NCBI GenBank assembly: GCA_949282435.1
Contig: CASDOM010000003.1
Location: 1-33,462, forward strand
Length of the DNA: 33,462 bases
Direction: 5' to 3'
Origin: an uncultured Ureaplasma sp.
Lineage (GTDB): Bacteria > Bacillota_I > Bacilli_A > Mycoplasmatales > Mycoplasmoidaceae
The notes under the pieces were generated by a model. The model worked only from the letters and a program-made list of their open reading frames with translations. It searched no databases and was not told the origin of the DNA. Both the position numbers and the translations under genes were made by a program. How positions within the stretch are numbered: position 1 is the stretch's first letter; the number at the start of each line of letters is the position of its first letter. Shown piece by piece: positions 12,405 to 33,338 of the stretch.

Positions 12405-12917
12405 ATGATTGATTTTAAAAAATACATTATGGATGTTAAAGATTATCCTAAAAAAGGAGTAATATTTAAAGATATTACACCATTATTTTTATATCCAAAT
12501 GTTGTTGAACAAATAATTGATGAATTTGCTAATTTTGCTAAAAAATATGATATTGATGTAATTGTTGGTGCTGAATCTCGTGGTTATTTATTTGGTTTAC
12601 CTCTTGCATTAAAATTAAAAAAAAGTTTTGTTTTAGTAAGAAAACCAAATAAATTACCTCGTGAAACATATAAGATAAGTTATAAATTAGAATATGGTGA
12701 ATCTAGTGTAGAGATCCATAAAGGAGATATTAAACCTAATCAAAGAGTTTTGATAATTGATGATTTGTTAGCAACTGGTGGAACTGTTGAAGCAATAGAA
12801 AAATTAGTTAAAATGTCTAATGGTATTGTTGTTGGTAGTGCTTATTTAATTGAATTAGAATCATTAAATGGAAGAAAAAAACTTACTGGAGAAATTTTTT
12901 CTATTTTAAAATATTAA
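12405..12917 (+). CDS. apt: Adenine phosphoribosyltransferase
   Basis: Encodes 170 residues, the full family length. It converts adenine plus PRPP to AMP in purine salvage. The N-terminus has DYPKKGVIFKDITPLF; GAESRGYLFGLPLA and RKPNKLPRETY are the dimer/flexible-loop motifs; the PRPP-binding VLIIDDLLATGGT carries D119-D120. It lies 14 bases after secDF with AAGGATTAAT as ribosome binding site, so it is probably cotranscribed with it. After the stop comes a run of seven T (12918-12924) preceded only by a weak AT hairpin. Confidence 0.97.
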   Translation: MIDFKKYIMDVKDYPKKGVIFKDITPLFLYPNVVEQIIDEFANFAKKYDIDVIVGAESRGYLFGLPLALKLKKSFVLVRKPNKLPRETYKISYKLEYGESSVEIHKGDIKPNQRVLIIDDLLATGGTVEAIEKLVKMSNGIVVGSAYLIELESLNGRKKLTGEIFSILKY

Positions 12918-12989: not shown

Positions 12990-15900
12990 ATGAGAAATAA
13001 TAAGTTTGACTTGCTTATTAAAAATTCATTAAGAATTTTTAAAAAAACAAAATTATTAATATTACAATTAATGTTTTTATTATTGATTGGTTTAACAATA
13101 ATATTAACAATTTTTTCATCTATATCATTGCTTAATCAATCTAAAAGTAAAATATTAAATGAAGGTAATTTAGCTGATATAACAATTACAATACCAGATA
13201 GTATTCGTGAAAAATCTATAAATGAATCAAATAGTGATGTAAGTATTAATATAGAATCACCTGCAGATAAACAATTACAAGAATATTTAAATAATTTAGG
13301 ATTAAGTTATACCATTAATCAAACTATTAATTTAAATGAATCGCAAGATAACTCAACATTTATTATGTACATGGTTGACAATGATAGTGAAGTTAATAAA
13401 TTAATTACTAATAATGATACTGTTTTTCCTATAGCAAAATATAATGAAAATTATTTCAAAAATGAAATATATAATAGTTTTAAATTTTGTTGAAGTTTAA
13501 GAAATTCATTATCATATATTGAATCAAATTATAATGAATACAGTGAACAATTTTTATATTCACAATATATGAATGTATATAAACCATGATTATTTATGCA
13601 ACTTATTTCAAACGGAATTTGAAATTTATCAAATGATGTAATTGAAAATATTATTCCTATTGTTCAAAAGTTAGCTTTAAAACCTCAAAATGAAAATGAA
13701 TATAATCAATACTATAATATTTATAATAGTGACAAAACAATTAATAAAAATTCATATTGATATAAATTAAGACAAAATATGCAAGTTAAGACTATGATCT
13801 ATAATGGTTGTGGTTATAACATTTCTTGTACTCAAACAATACCATTAATTGGAGATTCAGCTGCAATTCCATTTGATATTCAACTATATGATATTACAAG
13901 TTATTTTGCAATTGCAAGTAGTAATTATTTTAATGCATCAAATAAAAAAACTATTCCACATCAAACTTTAATGGACATTATGCAATTACCATTAATGAGT
14001 TATGATAATAACTCTATTAATCAACAAAACAAAATATATGTATACAATCCTGAAACTAATAGAAGCGAACCATATGATAATTTTGTTCAATGATTAAATA
14101 ATTTAAGTGATGAATATAAGGTTTATGTTAATTCAATTCCTTATGTATTAATTGATAGTGGATTTACTCCTGATATGTTATATCCAATAGTAAATGAAAA
14201 TAGTTATTTTATTGATTCTACACATTCAGGTGTATTATACGTTAATCAATATGGATATTTTAGAAGTACATTAGGTGTAAGTGAATCTAGCACAATATAT
14301 TATTCGGTAAGATATCCACCTGATACAAATATATTTCAACAACAAGATATATTATCTAAATTAAGTAATTTTACAATTGAAAATTATTTAACTAATACTG
14401 CTTATAGATTAGATGATTATAATCAACCTAATATATTAATTTATAATCGTGCTTATTTTTTAAATAATTTACAAAATACCATTTTAACAATAGGGATAAT
14501 CATTGGTACATTAATAGGTTTTTTATCTTTATTTTTTATATGTACATTAATAAGAAGTATTATTAAACAAAATAAAAATATATTGGGAATATGTATTGCA
14601 AACGGTATTGATAAAATATCTCTTGCTATTACTTTTTTTCCTTTTGCATTATTTCCATCAATAATATGTGCAATATTATCATATATATTTAGTTTATTAT
14701 TAACATTCCCTTTAAATAATATTATTAGTACTTATTGGACTTTAGATATTCCTACCCCAACTTTTAATGCATTATTAATGGTTGCAATATTTTTTATTTT
14801 ATTTATAATTTTATTTTTATTAATTATTTTAGTAATTTTATGAACATTAAGAAAGAAAACAACTGAATTATTAAATTCAAGTGGTGAATTTAGAATGAAC
14901 AAATTCATTATTTATTCTAAAAAATTAACTAACTTATTTAGTGCTTTTAATTCATTTAGAGTTACTTATATAATGGGTAATATAGTTAGATTTTCATTGT
15001 TAATATTAATTATTACAATATTTACAACTTTATTATCTTTTACCGTTGGTACATATAATCAATTTTCAATTGCATTTAGTTACACCAATAGAAATAAAAA
15101 TTATAAATATGCTTTTGATTTATATACACCAACTATTAATGGTGGTTATTATTCTGCAATGCCATATGAAGAATTAGGTATTTCTCAATATGGTATGTGA
15201 AATTTTTATTCATCTAATGGTGGAACTGTTAGTGGAGTTGTCAAAGGTCAAGTACAAGATGTCAATTTAAATAATTATTATATTGGTAATTATTTAAATC
15301 CACTTAATGCACCGCAGGAAAGTTTTTATAGTGGTAAAGAATATGCAAACGCTCTTGCATATCCATATTCAAATGATAAATATTTTACTTCTTTATTTAT
15401 GCCTAACACTTCATTATCAAATCAATTAAATAGTAATGCGAATTTTTTTAACAATAAAATATTTATAAAAGCATTATTAGATGTATATATTGATGTTGCC
15501 GGATCACCTATTAATGCATGAGAAATAGCTAAATCAATTGCTCCTACCAGTATATTAAATATTGCTAATAATTTATTTCAAGAACAAATTGAAGTTAATT
15601 ATCAGTTTTATTATTGATTACAACAACAAAATAATGATCCAAATTCTGAAATTTATTATTCTACATATTTACCAAATGTTTATCAACAACCTTTCACTAT
15701 TGATGGTAGTGATATTAGTGATGAATATTTAACTGCATCAAACAAAAAAGAATGAATTTTTATTAAAGAATATAATAATGATACTAATGCATATGAATGA
15801 GTATTAAATAGTGATAATGCAGTTAATTCAGCACCAACATATACAATAAAATCTGAAGTTGTTCAATTATGTGTACAAATGTTAACAAATTCTCAAAATA

Positions 15901-17375
15901 CTTTATTTCAAAATTGATATAAATATGTTTATGATAAAAATCCAAATAAAGGTGATGAAAATCAAATTATTCCTGAATTTAATTACAAAATTGGATATGG
16001 AGTAATTCCGTTATCTAATGATGATGAAACATATACATATATAAATGGTGATATTCTTTCAAAAAATAATGAAAATATAAATACAGTATCTACAAAAATT
16101 GTTGGAATAAAATCAAATTCAAACTTTGTTACATTATATGATGAAAATAATAATGATATTTCTTATTTATTAGAATCAAACACTGCAAATGGAAGTATTG
16201 AAAATCCTTTTCCATTAATCATCAATGAAGTTGTACAAAAATTATATTCATTTGATATTAATGATGTACTTGAAATAAATGCTACAAATTTATATGATAG
16301 ATTTAATAGAAAAAATTTAGAATTAGAAACTTACAATAAAGTATATTTTAAAATTGTTGGAATCACTTCATCAAAATCAGAACAACAATATTTTACTTTA
16401 CAAAAATATGCAAACAAAATTTTAGGGTTTCAAACTTTTGATCTTCCTAATCAAAAATGAAATGGTCCTAATAATCCCGGTTATGGATATGTGCCATTTA
16501 ATGGTGTTTATACAAATGAAGAAAATCCAAGAATAGCATACAATTATGGAGGGGTGTATTCACCAAGTGGATTAACAACGTCTAAAGGTATTTGAGATAC
16601 AAACATTGGATTTAATGAGGGACAAACAAATGGTGGGGAACTCCTTACCCTCATAGAAAATGCATGAGATATTATACCAACAATAATGCATATATCTAAT
16701 ATTGTAGATTATCAAAATAATAATGAAATTGTTGATGGATTCTCATATTTAGATAAATATAGTGATAAACCAAATGATGAAATAACTAATTTTATCCAAA
16801 GTAATATTTTATATACACATAACGAATTATGTAATAATAATTTTGATGTAACAACAATTGGTGATTGAGTTAGAAAATTAGTATCTATTTTTGATACTGA
16901 TCAACCTATTATTACAATGATTTCATCAATTGACACCACTCAAATTAATTTAGGTCAAATATTAGATTCTACATTTTCAAGAATAGAAATTATAGTTATT
17001 AGTTGTTTTATTCCTGTATTATTAATTATTTTATTTTTAATAGCTTTTGTATTAATTAGTGAATCTAACAAACTTATTGCATTAATGAAAGTATTAGGAG
17101 TTAGTGATATTAAAAATATATTCTTATTTATGTTTATGTATTATATAGTATTATTTTTAGGTATTATTATTTCAATTCCATTGACATATTTAGGTTTACA
17201 ATTAACTTCATTATTAATTTTTAATGGATTTAAAATAATCATTTCTCCATCATTACCATATTATATGTTTTTAATATGTTTAGGAATTATTGGATTAGTA
17301 TTTAGTGTTGTGACAATATATGCATATGATAAAATTAAAAAAATTAATGTTCCACAATCTATTTCAGTAAGATAA
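12990..17375 (+). CDS. Giant FtsX/MacB-type ABC transporter permease
   Basis: One open frame of 1461 residues once TGA is read as Trp; I checked the 15201-16685 stretch codon by codon and found no TAA or TAG. It has two similar halves, each a single TM, a large extracytoplasmic domain and a three-TM FtsX domain: TM 21-44, ectodomain about 45-485, FtsX domain about 490-631; then TM 663-686, ectodomain about 690-1325, FtsX domain about 1330-1461. The segment ALMKVLGVSDIKNIF is the typical cytoplasmic coupling loop. Such proteins work with a separate ATPase to move lipids or lipoproteins, or to drive extracellular conformational changes. No ATPase lies next to it, so it must pair with one elsewhere. 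Its stop is 1 base before the first lipoprotein gene. The substrate is unknown. Confidence 0.85.
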
Positions 17376-17376
17376 T

Positions 17377-18390
17377 ATGAAAAAGAAATTATTATATTTT
17401 TTAATTGCACCCTTAATTATTAGCTCACCAATTGTTTTAAGTTCATGTGCTAGCAATTTTGCTCATATAAACAGTAAACAAGTTATTGAATATAATTTAA
17501 ATGCCTTTGATTCAAAAGAATTGATGTTTAAATCAATTAATGAATGACAAAATGAAATTAGTTTGAATGAATATCAACAACTAATTGATACAATAAATAA
17601 TCTTATTGATTCTCAAATTGTTGTGGATGATAATGCATCATTATTTATGAATGAATTAAATACAAATTCTGATAATGAATTATGTAAAAATGTTATTTTA
17701 CAAATTTCTAACAATAATTATATCTATAATATTTATATTAAAAATATGTTTAATTTTTCATATAAATACATTGAACAAAACTTAAAACCAAATTCTTCTT
17801 TAGTTAGTCAACCAATTGATTTAAATCAAAGTGAATTAAGTTCAATTTCTGATGTAAATATAGATAGTGTAAATGATAACGAATTAATTAACGCGATAAA
17901 TTTAGTCGCTCCTAATAATGGTTTTTATATACCTAAAATTTATTATTTAAAATCTAAAAATTTAATTAATGATAAATATACATTTATATTTAGCTTAAAT
18001 CCATCATATAAACAAATATTTGAAATTCTTAGAGTCATGAATAACTGAAATGATATTGTTATAAATATTAATGTATCAATATCAAATGATTCTAATCAAC
18101 AAACAAGTTTTAATTTAAATTTAAATGATATTTCAACTTTTTTTCAAACAACAGATATTAGTACAATTAAAACAATGAGTCAAATTGATATTTTTAATAG
18201 TTTAAATAACTATATAAATAGTCTTACTAATATTAATAATTTACCACCTAATTGTTTAGATAAAAATAATAATTTATTTAATTTTAATATTGTTAATTTA
18301 AATAATGAATTAATTATTAATTTTTCTACAAATCCTAATGATAATAACAATTTAATATATTATAGATTTATTTTAGATTTTAGTGTATAA
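17377..18390 (+). CDS. Predicted lipoprotein, 337 aa
   Basis: A lipoprotein by its N-terminus: three lysines, a hydrophobic stretch and a lipobox LSSC with Cys24 as the lipidation site. The mature part is rich in Asn, Ile and Ser and appears to alternate short helices (for example YQQLIDTINNLIDS) with beta-rich stretches; I recognise no known domain. Segments around residues 172-212 and 265-310 resemble parts of the following lipoprotein. It begins 1 base after the permease stop, has no Shine-Dalgarno, and includes TGA Trp codons (for example 17545 and 18046). Position suggests it is displayed on the outer face of the membrane together with the permease ectodomains; a substrate-binding or adhesin role would be guesswork. 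Confidence 0.85.
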
Positions 18391-18399
18391 TATATACTA
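18381..18399 (+). promoter_or_regulatory. Near-palindrome with TATAAT before lipoprotein 2
   Basis: TAGTGTATAATATATACTA spans the stop codon of the first lipoprotein gene and contains TATAAT (18386-18391) preceded by TG, an extended -10 look. Its arms pair with a single mismatch that becomes G-U in RNA. The same arms (TAGT.TATA and TATA.ACTA) recur upstream of hpt. The downstream TTAGT (18404-18408) could also pair with ACTAA (18396-18400). It could be an internal promoter, an operator or a weak hairpin; no good -35 is visible. Confidence 0.35.
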
Positions 18400-18411
18400 A
18401 CTTTTAGTTAT

Positions 18412-21400
18412 ATGAAAAAAATAAAATTTTTATCAATATTATTTTCTTCAATATTTTCCATATCTACAGTGGCTTCTGTAGGTGTTTTATCAAGTTGTAC
18501 AACAACATCTTCAAGTACTCATTCATATAATAATGAAACTAAAACTATTGAATTAACTAGTAACAATATTAATAATGAAAATATTTTTTATGTATACAGT
18601 GATTTAATTAATAATACTAATAATTACATTAATAATTTAGTTTTAATTATTAATCAATGATATGAATTTAACTTAATAAATACTCAATTAGATTTATCTA
18701 ATATTACAATTCAAAATTGAAATATTAATATTCCTGTAAATAATGATAATATTAAACAAAGTACAATTATTAATTACAATATTAATTTTGAAAATTTAAA
18801 TATTCCTAATTCTAATCAATTTATAATTTCAAATAAAAATATTGCATTTAATGGTTTAAGTATTAATGATATTCCTAGTTTAGATTGACATGAAATACTT
18901 AATAATATATTAATGTATTCTAATTTACCAATTCCAAGTAATTGTTATATTAACACTAGTTTTTATATACTTAAAAAAGATGAAATTATATTTTATATTT
19001 TTTTACCATCTTTATCAACTCCGTTTGGTAAATTAACCATTCAAAATCGTAAAATAGAATTTAATGATGTAATTCCTAATAAAAACATTGCATCTACTAA
19101 TATAACAAATAATAATTTAGTAGAACTAATGGATTGAAATGTTACTTCAATTAATTCTACAAACTTTAATTATATTGATTCGATATTAGACACAAAATAT
19201 AATCCTATCAATTCTTTTTATTCATCATATTATAGTGCAGTTAATTCTCAAGCTGTAATTGATTTATTTAATAATTACTTTTTATCCGAATCTAAATTAG
19301 TAAATATCCAAATTGATCTTTACTATGGTATAAAAAATTTAATTAGTAATCTTTTGAAAACATGAAATGGATCAAACATTATTGATTTAAATCTTTTTTG
19401 TGGAGATAATTTGAAATTAAATTCGAATAATAATTTAGATGGAAATTTTGTTATTCAATTTTCTAATAATACTAATTCTATTCAAGAATTAAATCTTGAA
19501 AATTTATATTTTAATTTTAATATTGATAATATAATTGTTTCTCCAAATCAAATTGTTGAAATTATTATAAATTTTAATGATTCAAATTTAAAACCATTTT
19601 TATATGAGAAATCATATATTAACAATGATGCTTATTTAACATCTTCATGTAATAATGTAAATGTTAAATTATATGTTAATGATGTTTTAAAATATGAATT
19701 AAAAAATTCTGAATATATTAATTTATTACCTAATTCATATTGTTTAAAAACAATTGTAAATAATGTTACAAATGGTAATACATTAATAGACAGCATTAAT
19801 ACATTAAATCAATCTATTAATAATGTTAATGAAAATGATTTAATTAATTTAAATTCAGAATTTGTTAATAATAATGTTTATAAATTTAAAACAATATTAA
19901 AATCAATTCAAAATATAATGTTGTTAACTGCAAAAAATCCTAATATATATGATTTTTTAACTTCGATTAATGGTGATATATACAATATTTTATATGTATT
20001 AACAAATAATAATGCATTAGCTAAAGTTATTTCAGATTTATTTAGACCAATAAATTTATCTACATATTTTTATTATAATTTATCTTTCATAATTGAACTT
20101 GTAGACACATACTTTCCTATTTCAACAACAAAAGAAGAAATCTTAAGTATCTTATATAGTATTAAAAAAGAATGTAATAATGAAGCTAATACTGAACAAT
20201 GAGTTAAGGATTTAGAAAAATTATATAATACAGTAAATACTTTATTATCTCCAGCATTAGGTGATGCATCAGGAATAATTGCACAATTATTAGTAGAATT
20301 ATCAAGTAATAAAAATTTATTTGAAACATTAATTGATTTTTTACCTTGATTAATTAATAAATTAAATCAATTAAGTGGTAATTATTTAACAATTTCTAAT
20401 GCATTATTACAATATATTAATAATATTATTGATTTTGCTAATCAAAATGATCCAAGTTTAGTTGATAATCCATTAGATTATTCTGACTATAAAAAAATTA
20501 GAATATTAGATTTTGTTGTTAATGAAATTACAACTAATAATTCAAATTCATTTTTTGATTTATTACTAACTATATTAGGAAATAATAATGTTATAAACAC
20601 AATTAAAAATATTGTAGATATTGCTAATTTTAATTCTACAATTCAAGTTAGAACAAAAAATATTGGTAATGTATTTAAACCACAATATGAATATGAAACT
20701 AAAAGTATATATGAAGTTATTAAATGAATTATTAATGATTTTTTTACTAATGTTCAAATTGAAAATGGTAGCACTACTGACTTATATAGTGCAATAGATC
20801 AAAATTTAGTATATTCAAAATCTAATGAAAGTTTTAGTTATAATAACAAAAATTATACAGTTAATCAAACTGTAGATTGAACATTTAATTTAAAAAATAA
20901 AATTACTATTGACTTGTTACCTATTGCAGTTTTATTATCTAAAGAAAATATGACATTAGATATGAGTAATATTAACGTTTCTCCTACAATTGAATCATTA
21001 ATTAATAATGTTATTAATGGTGGTATTCCTGTTAATTTAGTAATAAGTTCATCTAACACAATTACAATGAAATTCAATTCTAATAATTCATATTTATATC
21101 CAAACATTAATGAAAATGGTATTGTCAATTGAAATTATATTAGCGAAAACACTACAAATGTTAATTGACAAAAAATTCTTAATGATTCTAATAATAGAGT
21201 TAGTGCTATGCAAAAATGTTATGGATCATCTTGAGGATTAATTAAAACATTATTACCTGTATTGTTATCCACAAATGTTTATACTAAAAAAACTGACTGA
21301 ATAACTACTAATTATTCAACTGGTTATCAAATTATTGATAATTATAATAATTCAAGTTATACTAGTAGTTTATATATAAATCAATTAGTTAATGATAATG

Positions 21401-21690
21401 AATTAATATCTTTATTTACAAATTGGATTAATACTAATTTAACATTTAATAATGGTTTTAATTATGATCAACAATTATTAAATGATTTTATAAATCAATA
21501 TTTTAAATTTAATGGTTTTGATACTAAATTTGTTTATTATCAGCCAGTAATAACTGCTAATAACTATAAATTAATCAATAATGTAAATTCTTATACATTA
21601 AATATTTATTTTAGTACTCCAATTTTGATTATTAAACCTGATAATTCATGTTATTTAACCAATAATTATTCAATTACAATAAATTTATAA
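18412..21690 (+). CDS. Predicted large lipoprotein, 1092 aa
   Basis: A long surface lipoprotein: basic start MKKIKF, hydrophobic stretch and lipobox LSSC with Cys29. No TAA or TAG interrupts the frame from 18412 to 21690; many Trp codons are TGA and one is TGG (21424). The mature protein is strongly Asn/Ile/Ser-rich, as expected for extreme AT bias, with a central helical part (about 440-720, including repeated short amphipathic helices) flanked by beta-rich parts. I recognise no known domain. Segments near residues 160-190 and 1025-1060 resemble parts of the 337-aa lipoprotein just upstream, suggesting shared building blocks. The start lacks a Shine-Dalgarno. The gene is followed by 34 AT-rich bases and a small membrane protein. 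Function is unknown; location and size fit a surface receptor, scaffold or antigen. Confidence 0.85.
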
Positions 21691-21724
21691 TTTTTTTATA
21701 AATATTTATATAATTAATATTAAT

Positions 21725-22030
21725 ATGCAAGATTGATTAATAGCATTAATTGCAATATTATGTATATTAGGTATATTTGCATTCATATACATTATAATTG
21801 CCTTTAGAAGAATAACTATCGTATTCAAAAAAATCGATTATCTAATCGAAGATTTAACTTATAAATCTGAAAAAATGAATAATGTTGTTGATGTTATAGT
21901 TAAACTTTCTGGTTATGTTGATGTGGTTGAAGGTGTTATTAAAAGAAACTCTGATGTTGTATCTACATTTATAAAAAATAATAAAATTGAATCTGTTAAT
22001 GAACTAAAAACAAAATCAAAAATAAAATAA
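21725..22030 (+). CDS. DUF948-type small membrane protein
   Basis: Encodes 101 residues, with Trp4 coded by TGA. A single N-terminal membrane helix (about residues 4-27, LIALIAILCILGIFAFIYII) is followed by an amphipathic, coiled-coil-like region (FKKIDYLIEDLTYKSEKMNNVVDVIVKL) resembling DUF948 proteins of Firmicutes and mycoplasmas, a family of undefined function. It sits between the large lipoprotein and another small helical protein, with no Shine-Dalgarno. The DUF948 call rests on general pattern (TM plus repeated hydrophobic heptads), so it could also be an unrelated membrane-anchored coiled coil. Confidence 0.65.
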
Positions 22031-22038
22031 TATTAAAT

Positions 22039-22329
22039 ATGAAAATAAACAAATTTATATTTCAATACATATTAGGATATATTTTATTAAATGCATTAAA
22101 TAAACAAGATTATGAAAAATTACAATCTTTATTTAATGAAAAATTTGTTAATGTAGATAGAAATATTTCAAAAGTAATTGATATATATAATGATTATTTT
22201 TTAGATAATGATAATTATGATTTTAAATCAGATGAAATTAATAAAAAAATAGATTCAATAAAAAAGGAAATAAAAAATATTAATGCAGATAGTATTGCAG
22301 ATAAAATTTATTCTAAATATAAAAAATAA
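22039..22329 (+). CDS. Hypothetical small coiled-coil protein
   Basis: Encodes 96 residues that I do not recognise. A short hydrophobic N-terminus (IFQYILGYILLNAL, about residues 7-20) is followed by charged helical sequence with a coiled-coil-like C-terminal third (DEINKKIDSIKKEIKNI). No Trp is present. The gene starts 8 bases after the DUF948-type gene and ends 14 bases before uvrA, so it is probably cotranscribed and may act with the preceding membrane protein. The N-terminal stretch may be a weak membrane association segment rather than a true TM. Confidence 0.65.
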   Translation: MKINKFIFQYILGYILLNALNKQDYEKLQSLFNEKFVNVDRNISKVIDIYNDYFLDNDNYDFKSDEINKKIDSIKKEIKNINADSIADKIYSKYKK

Positions 22330-22343
22330 TATTGAGGTAATTT

Positions 22344-25187
22344 ATGGATGATAAACAAAATTATATTATCATTAAAGGTGCAAAAGAAAATAATTTAAAA
22401 AACATTAATGTAAATATTCCTAAAAATAAATTAGTAGTAATTACTGGATTATCTGGATCTGGAAAATCTTCTCTTGCTTTTGATACGATTTATAACGAGG
22501 GACAAAGAAGATATTTGGAATCATTATCCAGTTATGCTAGACAATTTTTAGGAGGTAATGAAAAACCAAATGTTGATTCGATCGAAGGATTATCTCCAAC
22601 AATTGCTATTGATCAAAAATCAACATCTAATAACCCTAGAAGTACTGTTGGAACTATAACTGAAATTTATGATTATTTAAGATTATTGTATGCAAAAATT
22701 GGCACTCCATATTGTATTCATAATCATGGTATGATTAAAACACAAACAATTAGACAAATTGTAGATTTTGTAATTAATTTAAAAGATGAATCTAAAATTA
22801 TAATTTATGCACCTATTATTAATAATCAAAAAGGTAGTTTTAATGAATTATTAAATAAATATCGTAAAGAAGGTTTTTTAAGAATAAGAATTGATTCTCA
22901 AATTTGTTCATTAGATGACGAAATTAATTTAGACAAAAATGTAAAACATACAATTGAAATAGTAATTGATAGAATTATTTTACATCATGATCAACAAACA
23001 AGATCTAGATTAAATGATTCAATTGAAACTGCATTAAAAGTGAGTGGGGGAAGTGTAATAATTAATTATGATAATAATGAAAAAATGTTTAATGTTAATT
23101 ATTCATGTAATGAATGTGGATTTAGTATACCAAATTTAGAACCAAGATTATTTTCATTTAACAGTCCACTTGGTGCATGTAATAATTGTAATGGATTAGG
23201 TTTTACTTATGAACCCGATGAAAATAAAATGTTTCCTGATTCAAATTTATCAATAAATCAAGGTGGAATTGATTTTTTTAAAAATACTGTAAATACTAAT
23301 AATTTAGATTGGCAAAAATTTGAATGTTTATTAAATCACTATAAAATTCCAAAAGATATTCCAATTAAAAAATTATCTGATGAACAAAAAGATATTATTA
23401 TGTATGGTAGTAAACAACCAATTAGTGTTGTTATGGTATCCAATAATAATCGTAAATATGAACAATTAGAAATTGTTGAAGGTGTATTAAATTTAATTAA
23501 AAGACGTCATGAAGAAACTAATAGTGATTTTGCAAGAGAATATTATAGTAAATACATGTCTGAAAAAACGTGTAAAGAATGTAAGGGTAAAAGATTAAAT
23601 CAATATGCATTATGTGTAAAAATTGGTACAAAAGATATTATTGAATTTACTAATTTAGATATCCAAAGTGCAATCGAATATTTATTAAATTTAGAATTAA
23701 CTGATGAACAAAAATATATTAGTAAAATGTTATTAGATGAAATTATTAGTAGACTTGAATTTTTAAACAATGTAGGTTTAGATTATTTAACTTTATCCAG
23801 AAGTGCATCTACATTATCTGGTGGAGAAGCGCAAAGAATAAGATTAGCAACTCAAATTGGTAGTCATTTAACTGGTGTAATATATGTTTTAGATGAACCA
23901 TCAATAGGGTTACACCAAAAAGATAATGATAAATTAATTAATTCATTAAAAGAAATTAGAAATAGTGGAAATTCTTTAATTGTGGTTGAACATGATGAAG
24001 ATACAATGAGATCTGCTGATTGAATCATTGATGTTGGTCCAAAAGCTGGAATTTATGGTGGACAAATAATTGCTCAGGGTACTCCTGAAGAAATTATGAA
24101 TAATGATAATTCATTAACTGGAAAATATTTAAGTGGTAAAAATAAAATTGAAATTCCAAAAAATAGACGTAGTGGAAATGGAAGCAAAATAATTATTAAA
24201 GGAGCAAGTGGCAATAATTTAAAAAATATTAATGTTGAATTTCCACTAGGAAAAATGATATGTGTAACAGGTGTAAGTGGAAGTGGAAAATCAACATTAG
24301 TAAATGAAACATTAATCAAAGGAATTATTAAAGAAAATTTTAATAAATTTGAAAAACCATTACCATATAAACAAATTATTGGTGCAAATCATATTGATAA
24401 GATTGTTGTTGTATCTCAAGATCCAATTGGTAAAACTCCAAGAAGTAATCCTGCTACATATGTAGGTGTTTTTGATGATATTAGAGATGTATTTGCAAAT
24501 GTAATTGAAGCAAAAGAAAAAGGGTATCAAAAGGGTAGATTTTCATTTAATGTAAAAGGTGGAAGATGTGAAAAATGTCAAGGTGATGGAATTATCAAAA
24601 TTGATATGCAATTTTTACCAAGTGTTTATATTAAATGTGATAATTGTAATGGAAAAAGATATAATGAAGAAACTTTATCAATAAAATTTAAATCAAAATC
24701 AATATATGATGTATTATCAATGTCAATTGATCAAGCATGTGATTTTTTTAAAAATATTCCAATTATTCACCGTAAATTGCAATTATTAATTGATGTAGGT
24801 TTAGGTTACTTGCAATTAGGCACTCCAAGTAATTTATTATCTGGTGGAGAAGCACAAAGAATTAAATTAGCAAAACAATTACAAAAAAAACCTACTGGAA
24901 AAACTTTATATGCATTAGATGAACCAACTACTGGATTGCATATCGATGATGTTAAAAAATTAATTGATGTACTTAATAAAATTGTTAATAATGGTGACAC
25001 TATCGTTCTTATTGAACATAATTTAGATGTTATAAAAGTTTGTGATTATATTATTGATATAGGACCGTTAGGTGGTAAAAATGGTGGTGAAGTATTAATA
25101 ACAGGTACACCAGAACAAGTTGCATCAAATTATAATAAATCATATACAGGTGAATATTTAAATAAAATATTTAAAAGAGGATATTAA
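22344..25187 (+). CDS. uvrA: Excinuclease ABC subunit A
   Basis: Encodes a 947-residue UvrA, full length. UvrA is the damage-recognising ATPase of nucleotide excision repair and loads UvrB. Two ABC modules are clear: Walker A GLSGSGKS (residues 35-42) and GVSGSGKS (643-650), each with an LSGGEAQRI signature ([28 protein letters not shown]) and a Walker B ending LDEPS/LDEPT. Zinc modules are complete: C255, C258, C279, C282 and C742, C745, C765, C768. The single break in the frame (24021) is a TGA Trp codon. TGAGGTAA before the ATG acts as ribosome binding site. It ends 3 bases before ispF. The uvrB and uvrC partners are not in this window. Confidence 0.97.
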
Positions 25188-32540: not shown

Positions 32541-33338
32541 ATGAAATATATTGATACTCACACTCATACTAATTATGGTGAACTAATAGATCAATTTGAA
32601 AATATTATTAGTGAAATTGAAAAAATTGATATGTATATTAATATTGTTGGAAACAATATTAATGATAGTCAATTAGCAATTAATCAATCATACAAATCAA
32701 ATAATACTTATGCAACAATTGGGGTTCATCCAAACGAATTTAATAATGATATTGACATAAAAGAAGTTATTGATACATTAGAACAAATGTATATAAATAA
32801 TCAATCAAAAATTATTGCTATTGGTGAAATAGGATTAGATTATTATAATATTAAAAACAATAATCAAATTGATATTCAAAAACAATTATTTGAAGAACAA
32901 ATAAAACTAGCAATTAAATTGAATTTACCAATTGTATTGCACATAAGAGATGCTCATATAGATGCATATAATATTATTAAAAAATATAACAATGCAAAAT
33001 TTGTAGTACATTGTTTTACTGGCAATGTTGATGATGTTAATAGATATTTGCAATTAAATTGTTATATTTCATTTTCAGGAATTGTTACATTTAACAAAAA
33101 AACTGAGCACATATTAGAAGCGTTAAAAAATGTTCCATTAAGTAAATTATTAACTGAAACAGATGCTCCGTGATTAGCACCAGTACCAATGAGAGGTAAA
33201 ACAAATTTTCCGCAATATGTTTTATATACTAATTCATTTATTGCTCAAACATTAAATTTGGATATTGATAAACTTAATCAAATTTTAGTTAATAATGCAA
33301 TCAACTTTTTTAATTTGAATAATTTTAAATATAAATAA
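32541..33338 (+). CDS. tatD: TatD-family metal-dependent hydrolase
   Basis: Encodes 265 residues of the TatD DNase family. Metal-binding motifs are intact: DTHTHTN (residues 5-11), GEIGLDYY, HIRDA, HCFTG and TETDAPWLAPVPMRGKTN, where the W is a TGA codon at 33171. Family members are implicated in DNA repair or degradation, but the role in mycoplasmas is unsettled. The start is 2 bases after the mnmE stop. It is the last gene of the hpt-to-tatD run and is followed by AT-rich non-coding DNA. Confidence 0.95.

Follow-up and report, generated by a model that had tools for sequence, protein, structure and literature searches.

A giant type VII permease encoded with a remote P116 homologue in a relative of Ureaplasma suggests a power source for lipid uptake

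Introduction

What do a giant permease and the two lipoproteins encoded directly behind it do at the surface of a wall-less gut bacterium? The question is raised by a contig of an uncultured relative of Ureaplasma (GenBank assembly GCA_949282435.1, contig CASDOM010000003.1), whose 508-kb draft, metagenome-assembled genome is 85% complete and which NCBI places in the family Mycoplasmoidaceae. The whole contig of 33,462 bases was analyzed and is referred to as the window. Five consecutive genes on its forward (+) strand encode the permease PERM, the lipoproteins LP1 and LP2, and two small helical proteins, the products of genes 4 and 5. A sequence-only reading of this DNA had joined all five in one envelope machine, in which ATP-driven movement of the permease ectodomains acts on the lipoproteins.

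Mycoplasmas depend on host lipids. Here we propose, with a probability of roughly 0.5, that PERM, LP1 and LP2 form the surface-located portion of a machine that acquires lipids at the expense of ATP, in which a type VII ATP-binding cassette (ABC) transporter would power the loading or unloading of P116-like lipid carriers. The locus was compared with a family set of 95 genomes, in which the own genome is coded G000 and its relatives are coded G0xx. G080 is taken here as Mycoplasma genitalium and G024 as Malacoplasma penetrans, and on this basis the genus of G022-G031 is called Malacoplasma.

Results

When open reading frames (ORFs) were read under NCBI table 4, in which TGA encodes Trp, the five same-strand ORFs were recovered with the sizes reported earlier and with gaps of 1, 21, 34 and 8 bases between successive genes. 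The same ORFs were broken up under table 11, and the choice of the genetic code therefore matters for this locus. PERM (12990-17375, + strand) is a protein of 1461 aa for which hydropathy predicted exactly eight transmembrane (TM) segments, at residues 23-41, 503-521, 545-563, 598-616, 668-686, 1334-1352, 1377-1395 and 1425-1443. In each half of the protein, a large extracytoplasmic domain is located between the first and the second TM segment. According to this map, the first ectodomain comprises residues ~42-502 (about 461 aa; 13113-14495, + strand) and the second residues ~687-1333 (about 647 aa; 15048-16988, + strand). In addition, the FtsX domain PF02687 was matched twice above the cut-off, at 14496-14840 and 16992-17348, once per TM bundle. 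Together these findings verified that PERM is an FtsX/MacB-type mechanotransmission permease with two large ectodomains, and we classify it as a giant single-chain type VII (FtsX/MacB/YbbP-type) ABC permease with 4+4 TM helices. Orthologues of PERM are 42-58% identical, and 91 of the 95 family genomes contain a match. Its ectodomain gave no sequence match in the PDB. Porter and sabre subdomains were sought in an AlphaFold2 (AF2) model of the C-terminal half, but this model was unusable, with a predicted local distance difference test score (pLDDT) of 33 that rendered its fold matches meaningless.

Giant permeases of this kind were also detected elsewhere. The own genome encodes two more, on contigs G000:C31 (L036 6393-10862, 1489 aa) and G000:C35 (L039 4296-9701, 1801 aa), neither of which lies beside an ATPase. 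The genomes of the genus carry two FtsX permeases each, with two FtsX domains apiece, and the protein encoded on C35 is a third, divergent one in the own genome. In G089 (L030 3367-16213), a 2244-aa permease adjoins rplK-rplA, and behind it two surface proteins are encoded, of which the second is an MGA_1079-family serine endopeptidase (NF045847). These two proteins were considered as homologues of LP1 and LP2 and rejected, since they are not homologous.

PERM is followed by LP1 (17377-18390, + strand, 337 aa) and LP2 (18412-21690, + strand, 1092 aa). Both carry a lipobox, LSSC, at Cys24 in LP1 and at Cys29 in LP2, in full agreement with their description as two secreted lipoproteins. The order PERM-LP1-LP2 is kept in five genomes, namely the own genome, G088, G090, G092 and G093, in the last of these partly and on two contigs. 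Across these genomes, PERM and LP1 are separated by 0-2 bases, and LP1 and LP2 by 1-47 bases. Because they recur in G088, G090, G092 and partly in G093, this gene order and tight spacing are not due to chance. The same block was found in 'Candidatus Ureaplasma intestinipullorum' and in two uncultured relatives, and orthologues of LP2 were detected by single-sequence search in only five of the 95 genomes. Both the permease type and the existence of a conserved three-gene unit are, in our judgment, practically certain.

The nature of LP2 became apparent from profile searches. Such a search with LP2 matched a G022 lipoprotein from a family with multiple copies in Malacoplasma, members of which lie above the curated cut-off (65 bits) of NF045696, 'P116 family lipid acquisition surface protein'. 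Profile comparison gave 98.5% for LP2 and the Malacoplasma P116 proteins, 99.7% for the latter and P116, and 79.7% for LP2 and P116 directly; the respective scores were 138.6, 226.7 and 58.0, as against maxima of 22.9, 25.6 and 24.1 among 60 column-shuffled controls each. With other hhalign settings, the direct comparison of LP2 with P116 was non-significant (1.3%), and the link between the two therefore rests on the profile chain. The part of LP2 that is chained to MG_075 spans the bridge helix, the helical fingers and the beta-sheet of P116, with LP2 residue 488 corresponding to MG_075 residue 284 and LP2 949 to MG_075 808. In the P116 fold, the fingers form four pairs and the sheet has five strands. 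Furthermore, a hidden Markov model (HMM) built from P116 and Malacoplasma proteins without LP2 matched the LP2 of G092 at 6e-11 and no reversed sequence. The same HMM detected lipoproteins upstream of uvrA in G086 (4e-9) and G094 (5e-7), and the window's own LP2 was below the threshold in this search. A 1024-aa protein of G080 matched the P116 PDB entries as well as NF045696, indicating that this genome encodes a P116 orthologue.

A structure model of LP2 was compared with 996 chains using VIA-align. The best match was M. pneumoniae P116 (9fch) with a Z of 7.7 over 322 residues and an rmsd of 14.9, values that taken alone would mean little and represent a mere lead. In this match, LP2 488-949 was aligned with P116 283-818, and the list of matches contained another P116 entry as well. 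The registers of fold and sequence agree, as LP2 488 is paired with P116 283 in the former and with MG_075 284 in the latter. From the profile chain and the fold match, the P116-homologous stretch of LP2 was assigned to residues 267-991 (19210-21384, + strand). We are highly confident that LP2 is a remote homologue of P116 (MPN213/MG_075).

A Foldseek search of LP2 against the PDB listed the TULIP-type lipid binders JHBP, SPLUNC1 and Mmm1, every one with an E above 0.05 and taken as no more than a lead, and the model matched nothing in a viral fold library. LP2 as a member of MOLPALP, a lipoprotein family of Mollicutes, was dismissed as there was no NCBIfam match. More P116-like proteins are encoded in the clade that carries the block: a strong one in G090 (L237 8322-10847, E 3e-32) and a borderline one in G093 (L113 3-2468, E about 0.002), located directly upstream of homologues of genes 4 and 5. 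LP1 evolves fast (28-37% identity within the genus) and had no family match in the profile libraries. Its similarity to the N-terminal domain of P116 is short and local, confined to 42-45 columns at 22-26%. Kinship of LP1 and LP2 was rejected, as their similarity is confined to the signal peptide, and so was the idea that they are detached pieces of permease ectodomains, to which they show no similarity.

P116-family genes also adjoin giant permeases in Malacoplasma. In G022, a same-strand gap of 108 bases separates the gene for a 1605-aa permease from a downstream gene for a P116-family lipoprotein (NF045696, 570.9 bits). G023 (L236 4236-19901) has a one-strand run of three P116-like genes (1074, 1110 and 1072 aa) with the genes for a 1694-aa permease and an ATPase behind them; two of the three P116-like proteins were checked against NF045696 and both pass, with 85.5 and 73 bits. 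No other locus represents the proposed system as completely as this run of P116-P116-P116-permease-ATPase. The neighborhood of the window recurs in rearranged form in G022 (L238 4682-19767), where the small pair, uvrA and a giant permease are preceded, at a distance of a few genes and on the same strand, by a gene for a P116-family lipoprotein.

Conceivably, PERM and its neighbors share no more than an operon, with LP2 working alone as proposed for P116 and PERM serving another purpose, for instance in efflux or in envelope homeostasis. Most P116-family genes do not lie beside a permease, and G086 and G094 encode their P116-like lipoprotein near uvrA and the permease near rplK. In addition, the authors of the P116 study favor a self-sufficient wringing motion (PMC10023570). 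Against this, same-strand adjacency was found three times in separate settings, the permeases belonging to two clades and the ATPase being part of the run in one case, and the PERM-LP1 gap is 0-2 bases in all five genomes that keep the unit. We regard a mere shared operon as somewhat unlikely.

The same loci bear on the possibility that PERM is a MacB- or LolCDE-like device for export or maturation, which would extract or display LP1, LP2 and other lipoproteins, or export peptides, and for which LP2 would be a client rather than a lipid carrier. The type VII relatives LolCDE and MacB do act on lipoproteins or export substrates (PMC12646458), the permease of G089 adjoins different surface proteins including a protease, and LP1 and LP2 diverge fast. 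However, Mollicutes have no outer membrane to which lipoproteins could be sorted, and the lipoproteins repeatedly linked to permeases, in the window's clade, G022 and G023, belong to one homologous, lipid-binding family. This role is, in our view, unlikely.

There is no ATPase gene within the five-gene block. In ten genomes of the genus, including a 97%-complete genome on two contigs, exactly one ATPase of the MacB/LolD/DevA type was found per genome, encoded next to secA (189-205 bits; next best 143 bits). Those lower-class matches of the own genome that were placed belong to energy-coupling factor (ECF) and other transporters. The own MacB/LolD-type ATPase, which has Walker A and LSGGQ motifs, is encoded on contig G000:C15 (locus L124, ORF 223-1134). 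In G088, G090, G092 and G093 the gene order is tatD-ATPase-secA; the window ends after tatD (32541-33338, + strand), its final gene, and C15 starts with ATPase-secA-uvrB. Given the order in the four relatives and the fitting contig ends, the own ATPase is probably encoded right past the end of the window. Furthermore, G020 and G021 have the order tatD-permease-ATPase-secA. Their ATPases, located directly behind a giant permease, score ~405 bits against the C15 sequence and are the closest relatives of the ATPase of the genus, and the permeases themselves group in a tree with PERM_B, the second giant permease. Since a single ATPase copy faces at least two giant FtsX permeases per genome, it is likely common to several permeases, and we infer that PERM and PERM_B share it. 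In G080 (L167 5536-13458), the gene for P116 (MG_075) lies just behind secA-uvrB, the same surroundings in which the MacB-type ATPase is located in the genus of the window, and the permease-ATPase pair in G020 and G021.

The remaining members of the block are gene 4 (21725-22030, + strand, 101 aa) and gene 5 (22039-22329, + strand, 96 aa). Gene 4 encodes a single-TM, N-out protein. Its N-terminal TM segment is followed by Arg and Lys residues, and its helical tail is therefore predicted to be cytoplasmic. Right after the TM helix, R, KK, DYL, ED, YK and E residues are near-invariant (pair at 21725-22329). The label 'DUF948-type', previously attached to this protein, found no support in Pfam: gene 4 itself had no match to DUF948 (PF06103) and only one of its 18 homologues was matched, weakly (E 0.036). 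Gene 5 encodes a small helical, YtxH-like partner. Homologues of gene 4 were found in 44 of the 95 genomes and, in many of them, are followed by a second small protein that is homologous to gene 5 (hhalign 97%). In several genera, this small pair precedes uvrA, or yvcK or metG, without PERM or LP genes.

A five-gene envelope machine that includes both small proteins is consistent with the contiguity and the short gaps of the block in the window, G088, G090 and G092. However, the pair occurs in many genomes without the permease or LP genes, the gap between LP2 and the pair is the widest in the block (34-113 bases), and the tail of gene 4 would be cytoplasmic. In G093, moreover, the small pair and PERM-LP1-LP2 are located on separate contigs. 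The gene order in G041 is rplK-rplA-gene 4 and then uvrA, the block being absent, whereas it is rplK-rplA-PERM-LP1-LP2-pair-uvrA in G090 and G092. From this comparison, PERM, LP1 and LP2 are most readily understood as a block positioned between rplA and the small pair. We conclude that genes 4 and 5 are an older, family-wide pair of the uvrA neighborhood, outside the permease unit, and consider a machine of all five genes most improbable. Thus, of the co-occurrence expected by the sequence-only reading, the conserved order of PERM, LP1 and LP2 stood, whereas the small pair proved separable. Likewise, of the flanks it had called conserved housekeeping genes, uvrA (22344-25187, + strand) is a conserved right flank, but apt, which ends at 12917 to the left of PERM, is special to this genome, its place being taken by rplA in G090 and G092.

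Discussion

In the machine that we propose, LP2, a lipoprotein of the P116 kind, would take up lipids from its host surroundings into a hydrophobic cavity; these would probably be sterol and phospholipids. The MacB/LolD-type ATPase, encoded apart in tatD-ATPase-secA and presumably shared with the second giant permease, would move both PERM ectodomains by ATP binding and hydrolysis. These ectodomains may grip LP2, and their movement would squeeze or re-open it, so that lipids would flow from LP2 inward into the cell's own membrane, with LP1 as an accessory subunit. Physical contact between PERM and LP2, lipid binding by LP2, the direction of transport and the energy coupling are all inferred. 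A partnership of permease and lipoproteins, as previously suggested, is thus kept as the best reading, but the block itself provides no ATPase for it.

Several observations weigh against this proposal. LP2 and its orthologues do not match NF045696, remaining below its curated cut-off, and LP2 is therefore to be regarded as a distant homologue and not as a filed P116 member. The LP2 model behind the fold match was built from four LP2 sequences only and is poor (AF2, pLDDT 41.5), and the VIA-align values carry little weight by themselves. The absence of an ATPase from the block counts on the same side, as do the other surface proteins, one a serine endopeptidase, behind the corresponding permease of G089, and the view that P116 is able to deliver lipids alone (PMC10023570). 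Moreover, the P116-linked permeases of G022 and G023 fall in an MG_468-like clade and PERM in another, and about 35 of the 38 P116-family clusters counted have no adjoining permease, the clusters of M. genitalium and other Mycoplasmoides among them. A rough simulation with these 38 clusters, hand-entered numbers and a threshold that was set after seeing the data gave 0.5 linkages expected by chance and a P(>=3) of 0.013.

P116, by which M. pneumoniae draws cholesterol and other lipids from its host, is essential and extracts cholesterol, phosphatidylcholine and sphingomyelin. It switches between two states, one wide and filled, the other constricted and empty, and that a wringing motion delivers the lipids to the membrane is only a hypothesis; 'ATP' is absent from the main text of that study (PMC10023570). 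In type VII permeases, in turn, the ATP cycle drives the motion of extracytoplasmic domains (PMC12646458), and giant FtsX permeases are retained even in a minimal cell (PMC6629657). A genetic link between P116-type lipoproteins and permeases would connect two questions that are still open: what these permeases do and how lipids are delivered. In a literature search, carried out mostly without subscription journals, no paper was found that links P116-type lipoproteins with an ATP-driven permease. The joint encoding of a P116 relative and a giant permease thus suggests how lipid uptake may be powered, in a manner of which we know no earlier description. More tentatively, Mollicutes may possess a dedicated ATP-powered lipid importer, in which giant type VII permeases mechanically drive P116-family carriers of host cholesterol and phospholipids and one ATPase serves several permeases; in that case, M. 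pneumoniae P116 might likewise rely on such a permease, encoded at an unlinked locus.

Among known systems, P116/MPN213/MG_075 (NF045696, PF23707) is the closest to LP2, which is likewise large and predicted to be surface-exposed, and which is homologous over the core (residues 267-991) in the same register. Unlike P116, LP2 scores below the curated cut-off, bears a lipobox at its N-terminus and shares its locus with a permease, whereas for known P116 no energy source or partner has been described. The giant FtsX permeases of Mollicutes (MG_064-MG_065 and MG_467/468/468.1; MMSYN1_0034, 0399, 0531 and 0639 of JCVI-syn3, PMC6629657) belong to the same superfamily as PERM, but those examined in M. 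genitalium are paired with ATPases of their own and adjoin no P116-like gene. LolCDE-LolA and MacAB, both type VII systems, resemble the proposed machine in their FtsX-fold permease, mechanotransmission and extracytoplasmic carrier or adaptor. Unlike PERM, LolC/E and MacB are dimers of 4-TM permeases in a Gram-negative outer-membrane context. YbbAP-TesA of Escherichia coli, which extracts hydrophobic compounds (PMC12646458), shares with PERM a single chain with two FtsX-type halves and two ectodomains, and with the proposed machine a MacB/LolD-type ATPase and a lipid-related extracytoplasmic partner. It differs in that YbbP has 10 TM segments and the partner is an esterase, whereas PERM has eight TM segments, a P116-like neighbor and no adjacent ATPase gene. 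As YbbAP-TesA passes hydrophobic compounds from the membrane to the esterase, type VII systems can handle lipids; in the machine proposed here, the flow would be inward.

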